A stretch of DNA of 10,342 bases from a bacterium (GTDB taxonomy: Bacteria; Atribacterota; JS1; SB-45; 34-128): assembly GCA_018903015.1 (NCBI GenBank), contig JAHIPR010000343.1, positions 1-10,342 on the forward strand. Reading direction: 5' to 3'. The notes below the pieces were generated by a model. It saw nothing but the letters and a program-made list of their open reading frames with translations, did no database searches and had not been told where the DNA came from. A program made the position numbers and the translations under genes. This document shows, piece after piece, positions 6,022 through 10,342 of this stretch (position 1 is its first letter; each line of letters opens with the position of its first letter).

Positions 6022-8934
6022 ATGAAAAAATCCATCTTCTTCCTTTTACTCTTTATCTTTATCCTAACTTTCCCTTTCTCTCCTGTCTTAGCCCAGGATA
6101 CCGCCTTTCCCTACCTGAAACCCCCCGACTATCTCTCCACCTCCCAGGTGATCAGGCTGTCCGACGGGGAGCTCATCCGCTCGGCTACCTCCCAGGAGGA
6201 CATGCAGACCCTGGTGGGTTCCCTCTTCGGGGCCGATACCTACTTTGAAGAACTCAACGATGCCGCCTACCGCAAGGAGGTCTACCAGCAGGTCTTGCGG
6301 GAGATCGTCCTCATGAATGTCCTGGAACAGGACAGGAAATGGCTCTCTTATCTGACGGCAACCAGCAAGACAGCCAAACTGTCTCTTGACCTCCTGGATC
6401 CTGAGCTTATGGCCGACTTCTTCTCTCTCTACCGTGCTCTTATCGACAACCGTTACCTCCTGGATACCAATGTACTCACCAAGAGTTTAAACTACTTGAA
6501 ACAGTTCGGCCGGATGGATACCAAAGTAACTCAATCCTGGTGGCAGGCTATCGAGAAACTTAAACTCCATGAAAATACCCTGGATAAGGTAGGTAAGACC
6601 CTCTCCTTTGCCTCCTTCATCTCCTCTATCGGTTCTATCACCTTATCTGCCATAGAGGCCATGAACCAGGAGATCGCCTACCAGCACCTTTCTCTGATCT
6701 CTGAAAGCCTCAAACAGATGGAAGGGCAGGGAGAATACTTTCCTCCTGACTTCAAACAAGCTCTTACCGAATTAACTCAGGAGAACGATGACCTGGTCAA
6801 CAGTTCCTTTATCTCTGACTTTACTGAAAACTTCTACTATGAATGGGAGAAGAATAAGGATAACGTATCCGAAAAAGGCCTCTCCCTCTTTATGGGTACC
6901 GCCGGTAAGAAGATCATCACCACCACCCTGCAGAAAGCCGGTCTGTCCCATGTCGCCCTTCCTGCCTTAGCCTGGAGCCTCTCCATCCAGTATTCCTACC
7001 ATGTCATCCAGAGTGGCCGCAAGGGGATCGATCTCTTTCACCGTTATGTCATCACTACCGATACCCTCTTCTGGTTGAGGAAGATGCGGGACTATGCCTA
7101 TGCCAATCAGGATACTTCCTACCTCTCCCTGAACCTCCTGGATGCTACCTCCCAGCTCTATGCCTATCAGCTCCTGGAAGCCCTCTTGAATACCACCCCC
7201 CTGAAGCTGATGTTCTGGAAGCTGGGTACCCGGAAGCTGGCCTTATCCGAGATTACCTCTACCCAGGAGGAACTGAAGAATCTGTTTCCTGGGATCCCTC
7301 CAAAGATGATTACCTGGGAGAAGACTTTCGGGGGGAGTGAGGATGATTGGGCATACTCCCTTATTCAGACCTCTGATGGGGGTTATGCGGTAACTGGAAA
7401 TACTAAGTCTAAAGATGGGGTAGGAGATTTCTGGCTCCTAAGACTTGACGAGGAAGGGAACAGGAACTGGGATAAAACCTACGGTGGAAATAGTTTGGAT
7501 CGGGCATACTCCCTTATTCAGACCTCTGAAGGAGGTTATGCAATAGCTGGTCTTACCTTTTCCAAAGGTGCTGGAGAATCAGATTTTTGGATCATCAAGC
7601 TGGACAGGGAAGGTAATATGATTTGGGATAAAACCTTCGGGGGGAGTGAGGATGATTGGGCATTTTCCCTTATCCAGACCACCGATGGAGGCTACGCAGT
7701 AGCAGGATATTCCGTGTATGAAGATAAAAGAAATGTAGATGTCTCAGTAATAAAAATGGATCATGAAGGTAATATAGTCTGGGACAAGACCTTTGGGGGG
7801 AGTGATGATGATCGGGCATACTCCCTTATTCAGACCTCTGATGGGGGTTATGCAGTAGCCGGTTTTACCGACTCTAAAGGTGCCGGCAAAGATGATTTCT
7901 GGGTAATAAAACTGGATAGCAAAGGCAATATAGTCTGGGATAAGACCTACGGCGGAAGTAATGATGATTATGCATACTCCCTCATCCAGACCACCGATGG
8001 TTGTTACGTTATAGCGGGGGAATCGAGAGGCGATGCTTGGGTAATAAAGCTGGACAGCCTGGGGGACCTGCTCTGGGACAAGACCTATGATGAAACTGAT
8101 GTGGCATACTCCCTCATCCAGACCTATGACGGGGGTTATACCGTAGCCGGCTGGACCAGATCCAAAGGTGTCGGGGGAAGAGATGCCTGGATAATAAAAC
8201 TGGACAATCAAGGAAATTTACTCTGGGAGAAGATTTATGGTGGAAGTGATGATGATTGGGCATGGTCTATCATCCAGACTAACGACAAGGGTTATGCAGT
8301 AGCCGGTTGGACTAACTCCAAAGGTGCCGGTAGTGATGATGTCTGGGTAATAAAATTGGACGAACAGGGCAATCTAGGTGAAAGTTCAGAAGAAGAGTCT
8401 CAGTTGTTTATTCCAGAAGAAACATCCAAAGAAGATGCAACCTTAAATAAAACTTACGCTCTACGTGACACAGGTCCTGCGGGAGGTTTGATCTTCTACG
8501 ACAAAGGCAGTTATTCCGATGGCTGGCAGTATCTGGAATCCGCACCAGCATCTACTGAATGGATTAGCAAACAATGGGGTAGTAATGGAACTATGATTGG
8601 AGGAACAGAAACAGGTATTGGAACAGGGCAGCGCAATACGACTATTATCGTGACCTGGCTGAACAGTCATTCTGAAACAGACCGTGCGGCACAGCTTTGC
8701 GATGCTCTGGTTTACGGTGGCTATAGTGACTGGTTTTTGCCCTCGACAGATGAATTAAATCTGATGTACGAAAACCTGGAAGTCGATAGTGTTGGTGGTT
8801 TTGCTGATGGGAACTACTGGAGTTCGTCGGAGTACGATGCTGACTTTGCATGGAGCCAGTTTTTCTACGATGGTTGTCAGGGCATCAGCACTAAGAGCAT
8901 CAACACCCGGGTTCGTGCTGTCCGGGCTTTTTAA
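6022..8934 (+). CDS. Secreted protein: helical N-domain, seven propeller-type repeats, C-terminal DUF1566 domain
   Basis: A 970-residue exported protein. Residues 1-24 are a signal peptide (KK, long hydrophobic core, cleavage likely after VLA). Residues 25-430 form a helix-rich domain of no family I recognise, with two hydrophobic glycine/alanine/serine-rich stretches (about 193-211 and 298-322). Residues 432-785 hold seven tandem repeats starting at W432, W483, W535, W587, W639, W685 and W735, with consensus W-D-K-T-[FY]-G-G-S, SLIQT-DGGYAVAG and FWVIKLD-GN. Seven copies suggest one closed seven-bladed beta-propeller. Residues 816-970 are a DUF1566 (Lcl C-terminal-like) domain: GPAGGLIFYD, YGGYSDWFLPSTDELNLMY, NYWSSSE, RVRAVRAF. 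Its final 35 codons have the pattern of a diversity-generating retroelement target. AAGGAGGG 6 nt upstream sets the ATG. G+C is higher than in dnaG/rpoD. A surface-displayed binding protein is the most natural reading, by inference. Confidence 0.92.
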   Translation: MKKSIFFLLLFIFILTFPFSPVLAQDTAFPYLKPPDYLSTSQVIRLSDGELIRSATSQEDMQTLVGSLFGADTYFEELNDAAYRKEVYQQVLREIVLMNVLEQDRKWLSYLTATSKTAKLSLDLLDPELMADFFSLYRALIDNRYLLDTNVLTKSLNYLKQFGRMDTKVTQSWWQAIEKLKLHENTLDKVGKTLSFASFISSIGSITLSAIEAMNQEIAYQHLSLISESLKQMEGQGEYFPPDFKQALTELTQENDDLVNSSFISDFTENFYYEWEKNKDNVSEKGLSLFMGTAGKKIITTTLQKAGLSHVALPALAWSLSIQYSYHVIQSGRKGIDLFHRYVITTDTLFWLRKMRDYAYANQDTSYLSLNLLDATSQLYAYQLLEALLNTTPLKLMFWKLGTRKLALSEITSTQEELKNLFPGIPPKMITWEKTFGGSEDDWAYSLIQTSDGGYAVTGNTKSKDGVGDFWLLRLDEEGNRNWDKTYGGNSLDRAYSLIQTSEGGYAIAGLTFSKGAGESDFWIIKLDREGNMIWDKTFGGSEDDWAFSLIQTTDGGYAVAGYSVYEDKRNVDVSVIKMDHEGNIVWDKTFGGSDDDRAYSLIQTSDGGYAVAGFTDSKGAGKDDFWVIKLDSKGNIVWDKTYGGSNDDYAYSLIQTTDGCYVIAGESRGDAWVIKLDSLGDLLWDKTYDETDVAYSLIQTYDGGYTVAGWTRSKGVGGRDAWIIKLDNQGNLLWEKIYGGSDDDWAWSIIQTNDKGYAVAGWTNSKGAGSDDVWVIKLDEQGNLGESSEEESQLFIPEETSKEDATLNKTYALRDTGPAGGLIFYDKGSYSDGWQYLESAPASTEWISKQWGSNGTMIGGTETGIGTGQRNTTIIVTWLNSHSETDRAAQLCDALVYGGYSDWFLPSTDELNLMYENLEVDSVGGFADGNYWSSSEYDADFAWSQFFYDGCQGISTKSINTRVRAVRAF
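7033..7160 (+). repeat. 128-bp tract identical to the paralogue (copy 1)
   Basis: Bases 7033-7160 are identical, with no mismatch, to 10215-10342 in the downstream paralogue. Immediately upstream the two genes differ every few codons. The sharp change suggests recent gene conversion, or an assembly effect because the second copy runs to the window end. Confidence 0.9.
7315..8376 (+). repeat. Seven in-frame tandem repeats of about 51 codons
   Basis: Units begin at 7315, 7468, 7624, 7780, 7936, 8074 and 8224; unit lengths are 51, 52, 52, 52, 46, 50 and about 51 codons. Unit 5 is shortest, having lost most of its SKGAG loop. DNA identity between units is patchy: 28 bp are identical in units 1 and 3 (7327-7354, 7636-7663) and 40 bp in units 1 and 4 (7349-7388, 7814-7853), which points to recent recombination between non-adjacent units. 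Confidence 0.93.
8830..8934 (+). other. Candidate DGR variable region at the 3' end of the DUF1566 domain
   Basis: Codons 937-962 (8830-8907) include 17 that read as AAC or AAT changed only at A: TAC, GAT, GAC, TTT, AGC, TTT, TAC, GAT, TGT, GGC, ATC, AGC, ACT, AGC, ATC, AAC, ACC. They are interleaved with fixed-looking codons GAG, GCT, GCA, TGG, CAG, TTC, GGT, CAG, AAG. An invariant end, codons 963-970 (RVRAVRAF, 8908-8931), would serve as the initiation-of-mutagenic-homing end. Diversity-generating retroelements rewrite such 3' ends through adenine-specific error in reverse transcription of a template repeat. No template repeat or reverse transcriptase is in the window, so this remains a prediction. 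Confidence 0.6.
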
Positions 8935-8965
8935 CTGTTTATTCATTTAACTATTAAAGAGGAAA

Positions 8966-9116
8966 ATGGGGCCTATAATTGAAAAAGCATTCGGAAACCA
9001 TTATCATCCAGACTACTGATGACGGTTTTGCAGTAACCGGTTTTACCAAATCTAAAGGTGCCGGTGATTATGATTTCTGGATTCTCAAACTAGATGAACA
9101 GGGCAATCTAAAATAA
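8966..9116 (+). pseudogene. Broken single propeller repeat, remnant of a paralogous gene
   Basis: Two frames together spell one repeat unit. From ATG 8966 the sequence reads ...IIEKAFGN, matching the repeat start W-E-K-T-F-G-G. After about base 8996 the match moves to another frame: IIIQTTDDGFAVTGFTKSKG, then FWILKLDEQGNLK and a TAA at 9114-9116. The GS-D-D-W-A segment between them is missing, so an internal deletion of roughly 20-25 bp broke the frame. GAGG precedes the ATG, but the product would stop at once in that frame (TGA at about 9017). A TTG at 8979 could in principle translate the second frame as a 45-residue peptide, for which there is no support. It is most likely debris left by duplication or unequal crossing-over in this gene family. 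Confidence 0.65.
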
Positions 9117-9197: not shown

Positions 9198-10342
9198 ATG
9201 AAAAGATCCATCCTCTTACTTTTACTCTTTCTCTTTATCTTATCTTTATCTTTCTCTTATTCTTCTGTCTTAGCCCAGGATAACACCTTTCCCTATCTGA
9301 AACCTCCCGACTATCTGTCTACCTCATCGGTCATAAGGTTGGCAGACGGGGAACTGATCCGCTCGGCCACCTCCCAGGAGGACATGCAGACCCTGGTCGG
9401 CTCTCTCTTCGGACTAGACACCTACTTTGAAGAGCTCAACGATGCCGCCTACCGCAAGGAGGTCTACCAGCAGGTCCTGCGAGAGATCGTCCTGATGAAT
9501 GTCCTGGAAGAGGATAGGAAATGGCTGGCTTATCTGACCGCTGCCAATAAGACAGGCAAACTGTCTCTTGACCTCCTTGACCCCGAACTGATGGGTGACT
9601 TCTTCTCCCTCTACCGTGCCCTCATCGACAACCGTTATCTACTGGATAACAATATCTTAACCCATACCTTAAACTACCTGAAGCAGTTCGGCCGGATGGA
9701 TACCAAGATCTCCCAATCCTGGTGGCAGGCCATCGACAAGCTGAAGCTTAATGAGAACACCCTGGACAAGGTAGGGAAGGGCCTCTCCCTTGCCTCCTTC
9801 CTCTCCTCAATAGGTTCTATCACCCTATCAGCTATGGAGGCCATGAACCAGGAGATCGCCTCCCAGAACCTTTCTCTCCTTTCGGAAACCCTCTCCGACA
9901 TGGAAGGGCAGGGAGAATACTTTAACCCCGAGTTCAAATCCGCCCTTAGCGAATTAACCAAGGAGAATGATGACCTCATAAACAGCTCCTTCATCTCTGA
10001 CTTTACCGAAAATTTCTACTATGAGTGGGAGAAGAACAAGGATAATGTCACCGAAAAAGGTCTCTCCCTCTTTATGGCTACTGCCGGTAAGAAGGCCATC
10101 ACCGCCACCCTAGAGAAAGCCGGTCTTGCACATGCCGCCCTTCCTGCCCTGGCCTGGAGCCTCTCCATCCAGTATTCCTATCATGTCATCCAGAGTGGCC
10201 TAAAAGGGATTGACCTCTTTCACCGTTATGTCATCACTACCGATACCCTCTTCTGGTTGAGGAAGATGCGGGACTATGCCTATGCCAATCAGGATACTTC
10301 CTACCTCTCCCTGAACCTCCTGGATGCTACCTCCCAGCTCTA
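9198..10342 (+). CDS. Secreted paralogue of the 970-residue repeat protein, 3'-partial
   Basis: An open frame from ATG 9198 runs off the window after 381 complete codons. It begins with a signal peptide (KR, hydrophobic core, cleavage likely after VLA at residue 26) and continues with the same helical N-terminal domain as the upstream gene, offset by two residues. I count about 44 differences in some 320 residues, so about 86% identity, mostly conservative and scattered. The final 128 bp are identical to the upstream gene. Shared landmarks include SATSQEDMQTLVGSLFG, MDTK, SQSWWQAI, MEGQGEYF and FTENFYYEWEKNKDN. The domains beyond residue 381 are unseen; by analogy they could be propeller repeats plus a DUF1566-type end, but this need not hold. 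Purifying selection on the N-domain implies both genes are or were recently functional. Confidence 0.93.
   Translation, partial: MKRSILLLLLFLFILSLSFSYSSVLAQDNTFPYLKPPDYLSTSSVIRLADGELIRSATSQEDMQTLVGSLFGLDTYFEELNDAAYRKEVYQQVLREIVLMNVLEEDRKWLAYLTAANKTGKLSLDLLDPELMGDFFSLYRALIDNRYLLDNNILTHTLNYLKQFGRMDTKISQSWWQAIDKLKLNENTLDKVGKGLSLASFLSSIGSITLSAMEAMNQEIASQNLSLLSETLSDMEGQGEYFNPEFKSALSELTKENDDLINSSFISDFTENFYYEWEKNKDNVTEKGLSLFMATAGKKAITATLEKAGLAHAALPALAWSLSIQYSYHVIQSGLKGIDLFHRYVITTDTLFWLRKMRDYAYANQDTSYLSLNLLDATSQL
10215..10342 (+). repeat. 128-bp tract identical to the upstream paralogue (copy 2)
   Basis: Identical to 7033-7160 and truncated by the window end, so the true identical tract may be longer. 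It encodes the conserved stretch from LFHRYVITTDTLFWLRK to DATSQL in both proteins. Confidence 0.9.

Follow-up and report, generated by a model that had tools for sequence, protein, structure and literature searches.

In phage BPP-1, a diversity-generating retroelement (DGR) diversifies mtd, a tropism gene beside the cassette, and a hairpin or cruciform on the 3′ side of the variable region (VR) is needed for efficient retrohoming, as described in PMC3240598, from which the concept of the initiation of mutagenic homing (IMH) site is also taken. In Treponema denticola, adenine-specific VR targets lie far from the core, or occur in isolates without the reverse transcriptase (RT) and the template repeat (TR) (PMC4891356). 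Among the Pfam domains found in DGR target genes, DUF1566 is the most frequent, and its fold is stated to be that of C-type lectins (PMC6642488). DUF1566 DGR targets and orphan VRs are already known kinds. The main text of a global survey (PMC8144416) contains neither "Atribact" nor "DUF1566", and in open-licence papers, taken without their supplements, we found none joining Atribacteria or Atribacterota with DGRs. Here we describe a 10,342-nt stretch of DNA (contig JAHIPR010000343.1, hereafter the window) from a bacterium of the Atribacterota, in which the gene of a 970-aa secreted-looking protein ends in a DUF1566 domain. The 3′ end of this gene is very probably a VR that was made by a DGR, has been dispersed, and is probably retired.

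The VR spans positions 8791–8931 (this and the other window features given with coordinates below are on the forward strand) and comprises the last 47 codons of the protein. It is homologous to the TR of a DGR cassette in Spirochaetia UBA2205 (locus L041, 10897–11037) and to the template-like end of a DUF1566 gene in the Atribacterota genome G041 (locus L189, from 9231). A preliminary description of the window had recognised a probable DGR target in the mutagenised core, codons 937–962 (8830–8907). The core stands as described, with the GAG of codon 937 at 8830 and the stop codon ending at 8934, whereas the 5′ edge of the VR lies further out, at about 8791. In the core, 20 of the 26 codons end in C or T; setting aside the fixed-looking GCT, TTC, and GGT leaves the 17 codons that had been named as variable. 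Of these, only codon 961 (AAC) has stayed Asn and one, TGT, encodes Cys, in agreement with that description. The template predicted from these codons is present almost letter for letter in G041 and L041, and such a template also stands near the start of the reading frame in 11 of the 120 metagenomic relatives of the RT that were listed. The DUF1566 gene of G041 ends with ENNANNAWNQNFNNGNQNNNNKNNNKRVRAVRGF plus a few residues, and an interrupted DGR RT lies closely downstream. Its template-like sequence has AAY (AAC or AAT) at 16 of the 17 named positions and AAA at the 17th. At these 16 AAY columns all window codons end in C or T and 15 have changed, while the residue is kept in 21 of the other 23 codons compared. 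Because the AAY positions of G041 match the codons named as variable, the DGR reading is lifted above chance.

The differences fall mainly on template adenines, as the preliminary description had predicted. Between the window and G041, 21 of 43 template A differ over 117 nt against 8 of 74 other bases (Fisher p = 1.1e-5), and in the reverse direction all 22 A on the window side are matched. Within the core, the changed positions are 21/41 template A and 3/37 non-A. The scaffold upstream of the VR served as control: its 348 aligned nucleotides have no adenine bias (37/99 A versus 75/249 non-A, p = 0.20), and their differences are commonest at the third base of the codon (52 of 116, versus 31 and 29 at the other two). 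Against the L041 template the bias persists but is weaker (22/41 A, 15/76 non-A, p = 0.0003, 3/22 reverse). When the VRs of L041 and the window are compared with each other, the bias by one side's base is small (p = 0.03) and A mismatches occur on both sides (13/25 and 10/22), as expected because both copies are mutated. Six other Atribacterota VRs differ from the G041 template at 17–23 of 43 A and 4–15 of 74 non-A, with 0–4 reverse mismatches; a damaged-looking copy, L203, does so at 27/43 A and 14/74 non-A, and L164 (G002, contig C61) gave no VR match in this comparison. A scan of genome contigs with the DUF1566 domain, of which the best 80 matches were kept, yielded 57 gapless matches to the G041 template, with median mismatches of 20/74 non-A and 22/43 A; at most eight non-A mismatches were found in three of them (L041 TR, L041 VR, and L059). 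Since these family medians are higher, the window is nearer to the G041 template than most family members are. At its 3′ end (8908–8931) the VR has an IMH-like sequence of VR type, CGGGCTTTT, unlike the template 3′ end (IMH*) CGGGGTTTT carried by the templates of L041, of the Treponema locus L056, and of G041. Searching 50 Atribacterota genomes with the G041 template as DNA gave, beyond the known DUF1566 loci, matches at E 0.004 or weaker, which were taken as chance.

The variation across the family follows the same pattern. Among 120 listed of 299 DUF1566-domain homologues, 75 gave gapless VRs (73 distinct) and 45 were dropped. The 16 template-Asn columns of the 73 VRs hold 1168 residues, of which only 45 are ones that NNY codons (any codon ending in C or T) cannot encode (E, K, Q, M, and W), compared with 14.8% in whole proteins; 47 of the 73 have none there. 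Eight relatives share the scaffold of the window protein (six distinct VRs; N-domains 70–82% identical over aligned 198–419 residues); measured against the window VR, they agree at 16–20 of 20 fixed columns and differ at 13–17 of 17 variable columns. The 1365-aa homologue P0001 scored 403 bits over the 111-aa query, suggesting several DUF1566 domains in one protein.

Point mutation and selection in Asn-rich binding loops could by themselves, without any DGR, give a fast-evolving lectin tip. To our knowledge, DUF1566 also occurs outside DGR targets, as in the adhesin Lcl, and the codon pattern of the window taken alone is compatible with chance. Such ordinary evolution is nevertheless highly improbable, since the changes to the G041 template are specific in base and direction, residues outside the NNY set are few, near-constant columns stand amid hypervariable ones, and cassettes of template, VR, and RT exist with the same domain.

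Two such cassettes were found by the DUF1566 domain scan combined with a six-frame scan for RT motifs. In L041 the order is a DUF1566 gene with its VR (core repeat from 10223), avd (10410–10748), the TR (about 10897–11037), and the RT (11095–12291); its own TR and VR differ at 17 of 41 template A and at 2 of 76 other bases. In L056, seven of eight differences over 60 nt are on template A. A near-repeat screen of the loci found a clear A direction in these two (6/7 in L041 and 7/8 in L056); VR/VR pairs without one, e.g., in L007, L010, and L061, were rejected. One Treponema locus (L053, 10211–17600) contains several DUF1566 VR copies, among them an A-rich copy at 14286 that forms weaker pairs with two others (7/11 and 7/13 differences at its A). 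The window shares with L041 and L056 the DUF1566 target domain, the AAY-rich template pattern, the VRAVRAF 3′ end, and the adenine-specific VR. It differs from them in having no avd, TR, or RT, in its reduced 3′ hairpin, and in carrying the module on a delta-60 scaffold in Atribacterota.

In the 50 Atribacterota genomes, six have DUF1566, with nine matches. Remnants of cassettes occur at two of the loci outside the window. The first is L189 (8028–10229 on contig C17 of G041), a DUF1566 gene with a template-equal 3′ end and the interrupted RT close behind it. This RT matches residues 1–138 and 156–262 of the 399 residues of the L041 RT and ends early. As the template-like copy has the TR-type 3′ end, VR and TR of G041 were presumably fused by deletion. 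An upstream open reading frame (ORF) of L189, at 6849–7541, looks by eye like a transposase or integrase. The second is L001 (10318–10444; Atribacterota CSMAG_886, genome G001), a truncated cassette in which the VR and a GC hairpin precede the opening 21 codons of avd, a gene to which there was no further match. No avd was found beside the remaining Atribacterota VRs, nor beside the target within the window. In Spirochaetales CSMAG_2727 (L033, 793–1437), a DUF1566 VR is directly followed by a match to residues 1–159 of the L041 RT, and the spacer resembles that of G041.

The module could also have been mutagenised by the DGR of another bacterium, such as a spirochaete, and transferred already diversified. 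Templates and 3′ flanks are common to Atribacterota and Spirochaetia, and the G041 RT pieces are 68–74% identical to the L041 RT across two phyla. We regard this transfer as quite unlikely, because the Atribacterota have cassette remnants of their own (G041 and G001) and the best of the genome-contig matches listed is the Atribacterota locus L001 (72%).

The untranslated 3′ flank, TAACTGTTTATTCATTTAACTATT... (8932–8959), is by eye like the flanks of L041, L192, L191, and L001 and unlike those of L194, L033, and L051. It is followed by an apparent remnant of a GC hairpin (8966–8978), GGGGCCTATAA where L001 has GGGGGCTTTGCCCCCTATAA, for which no stable hairpin is predicted (minimum free energy of the flank −1.7, z +1.26). 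A GC stem of 7–9 bp after the VR was predicted in the flanks of L041, L001, L192, and L056, with z-scores of −4.28 for L192 and −1.1 to −1.7 for the other three. No strong GC stem appeared in the folded flanks of the window, L193, L190, L191 (a weak stem), and L194 (an AT-rich stem). The window is thus like BPP-1 in its IMH-like VR end and adenine mutagenesis, and some of its relatives also have the hairpin 3′ of the VR; unlike BPP-1, the window itself has none.

Just behind the flank, an orphan, out-of-frame delta-60 repeat (8972–9116) ends in LDEQGNLK and a stop codon. The homologue P0242, whose N-domain is 86% identical to that of the window protein and which has no DUF1566, ends with the same residues. 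The orphan repeat is likely the original 3′ end of the gene, severed by the DUF1566 module; together with the module-less relative, it suggests that the module entered a delta-60 repeat gene close to the 3′ end. Metagenomic relatives suggest that modules and scaffolds are exchanged: P0045 and P0247 have 250 of 255 N-domain residues in common while their DUF1566 modules differ (70% identical, 2/17 at the variable columns), and P0103 and P0079 have the module in common (94%, VR identical) with N-domains that are 81% identical. Compared with the remote and leftover targets of T. denticola, the window target belongs to another phylum and another scaffold, and it bears visible traces of the insertion of a module and of a reduced hairpin.

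Several observations weigh against a DGR-made, retired VR. No RT, avd, or TR was found within the 10-kb window (the TR was sought by repeat search), in line with the preliminary description, which had reported no RT or template there. The codon pattern within the window is not significant by itself: C/T-ending codons make up 60.4% of the gene, so that 20 of 26 in the core gives a binomial p of 0.06, and 102 of the gene's 945 stretches of 26 codons are equally enriched. The 17 positions had moreover been chosen after inspection of those same codons, and codon statistics of the window alone were dropped as proof of a DGR. The template donors are other species, the DnaG of G041 being 64% identical to that of the window; in G041, moreover, the RT is interrupted, and the template-like copy sits inside a target gene rather than in a separate TR. 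Eight non-A differences separate the window from G041; one of them is that at the IMH, and a few others may reflect AAT/AAC differences in the true template. The hairpin evidence is mixed, with a GC stem in four of nine flanks and a strong z-score in L192 only. The L193 VR looks as fresh as that of the window (4/74 non-A, 0/26 reverse) and yet has no hairpin, so that hairpin loss is suggestive rather than decisive. Finally, the metagenomic proteins on which the argument for module exchange rests could be chimeric assemblies.

The VR might instead be an active remote target of an intact DGR, with RT, avd, and TR, elsewhere in the same genome. It looks fresh, with 0/22 reverse mismatches and 16/16 codons at the AAY columns still NNY. 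Metagenomes contain RTs with 78–89% identity to that of L041 (11 of 120 listed), and service of remote targets by one RT is known from T. denticola (PMC4891356). This state is unlikely, if still worth serious consideration. The hairpin after the window VR is reduced, and the sole DGR-type RT recognised by similarity and motif in the 50 Atribacterota genomes, which may be incomplete, is the broken one of G041. In G035, the closest genome, neither the L041 RT nor DUF1566 found a match. With the 3′ hairpin reduced and the cassettes of related genomes broken or unfound, the window copy may no longer be rewritten, and we judge a retired or rarely used VR more likely than a live target.

The RT frame of L041, a query that includes template residues, matched 11 of the 50 Atribacterota genomes at E ≤ 0.001; the matches other than the G041 RT were VR matches, or RTs of 24–34% identity without the DGR motif. 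Three RTs from the genomes that hold L001 and L005, namely L161, L162, and L163, were rejected as DGR RTs, being 24–28% identical to the L041 RT and without GxxxSQ, which we take to be the DGR RT motif. Of the other RT matches in the 50 genomes, L171, L173, L174, L177, L179, and L182–L185 were rejected for GTPQGG..SP-type motifs, presumably group II intron-like; L175 had no motif match. By eye, the long RT protein of L161 (442–3150; G002, a second Atribacteria genome) resembles a fusion of an RT with a Cas1-like portion. At least 120 stretches of viral contigs have the degenerate template pattern, many with a distant avd, and DUF1566 matches in phages and plasmids are only distant (12 and 2 records, all below 60% identity).

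The DUF1566 (Lcl_C) domain occupies 8437–8931, and the VR sits at the 3′ end of a target of predicted C-type-lectin-like fold. AlphaFold2 modelled the domain from 47 rows with a mean pLDDT of 95.8. The C-terminal domain of the Legionella collagen-like protein Lcl, an adhesin domain (PDB 8q4e), is its best match in both sequence (E 1.5e-7) and fold (Foldseek E 8.1e-7, root mean square deviation 6.5); a Bacteroides fimbrial protein (4eps) is next (9.6e-5). Only these two reached E ≤ 0.001, with C-type lectins at E 0.06 and weaker. In the model, the variable residues alternate along the strands and occupy the intervening loops. The term "diversity-generating" does not occur in the main text of the Lcl structure paper (PMC11162425).

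The 970-aa protein (6022–8934) begins by eye like a signal peptide. Its N-terminal domain (6097–7297) has no assigned family; of 13 proteins homologous to it, nine have a precomputed DUF1566 domain (one being the window protein itself) and four have none. A search for this domain, run without a positive control, found it in none of the 50 Atribacterota genomes. The delta-60/SBBP-like repeats that follow (7314–8376), at a spacing of mostly 156 nt and with matches below the NCBIfam cut-offs, possibly form a β-propeller. An ORF from 9198 to 10342, cut at the window end, is a tandem paralogue that holds a second copy of the N-domain, and its nucleotides are 85% identical to the scaffold at 6022 across 300 nt. 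These two related secreted-looking proteins are preceded in the window by a TIGR00375-family protein (cut at the window start), DnaG, RpoD, and a PEGA protein. The window DnaG, matched in 48 of the 50 genomes, is 97% identical to that of G035 and 86–93% identical to those of G038, G040, G036, G033, G039, G001, and G037, which assigns the window to Atribacterota.

The VR very probably arose when an error-prone RT that misreads adenines copied an AAY-rich template and the copy took the place of the 3′ end of a DUF1566 gene, so that 16–17 residues on a C-type-lectin-like tip were randomised; the template comparison supports this step. Within this lineage of Atribacterota, the module with its VR and some 30–60 nt of 3′ flank was presumably joined to a secreted protein of delta-60 repeats. 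Having no adjoining cassette and a reduced hairpin, the VR is now most likely a binder, secreted or at the surface, whose sequence is fixed or seldom rewritten. We tentatively extend this to the phylum: DGR-diversified lectin tips of Atribacterota may be free-standing modules recombined between secreted scaffolds, a population library of pre-randomised binders that outlasts the decay of the RT.

The window shows that a single mutated copy can suffice to recognise a DGR target, its predicted template then being met in relatives. With it, DUF1566 DGR targets and remnants of their cassettes are placed in Atribacterota, a phylum of the subsurface that is largely uncultivated. It also suggests the fate of hypervariable binders once their mutator is lost, which would be fixation, spread, and module exchange.

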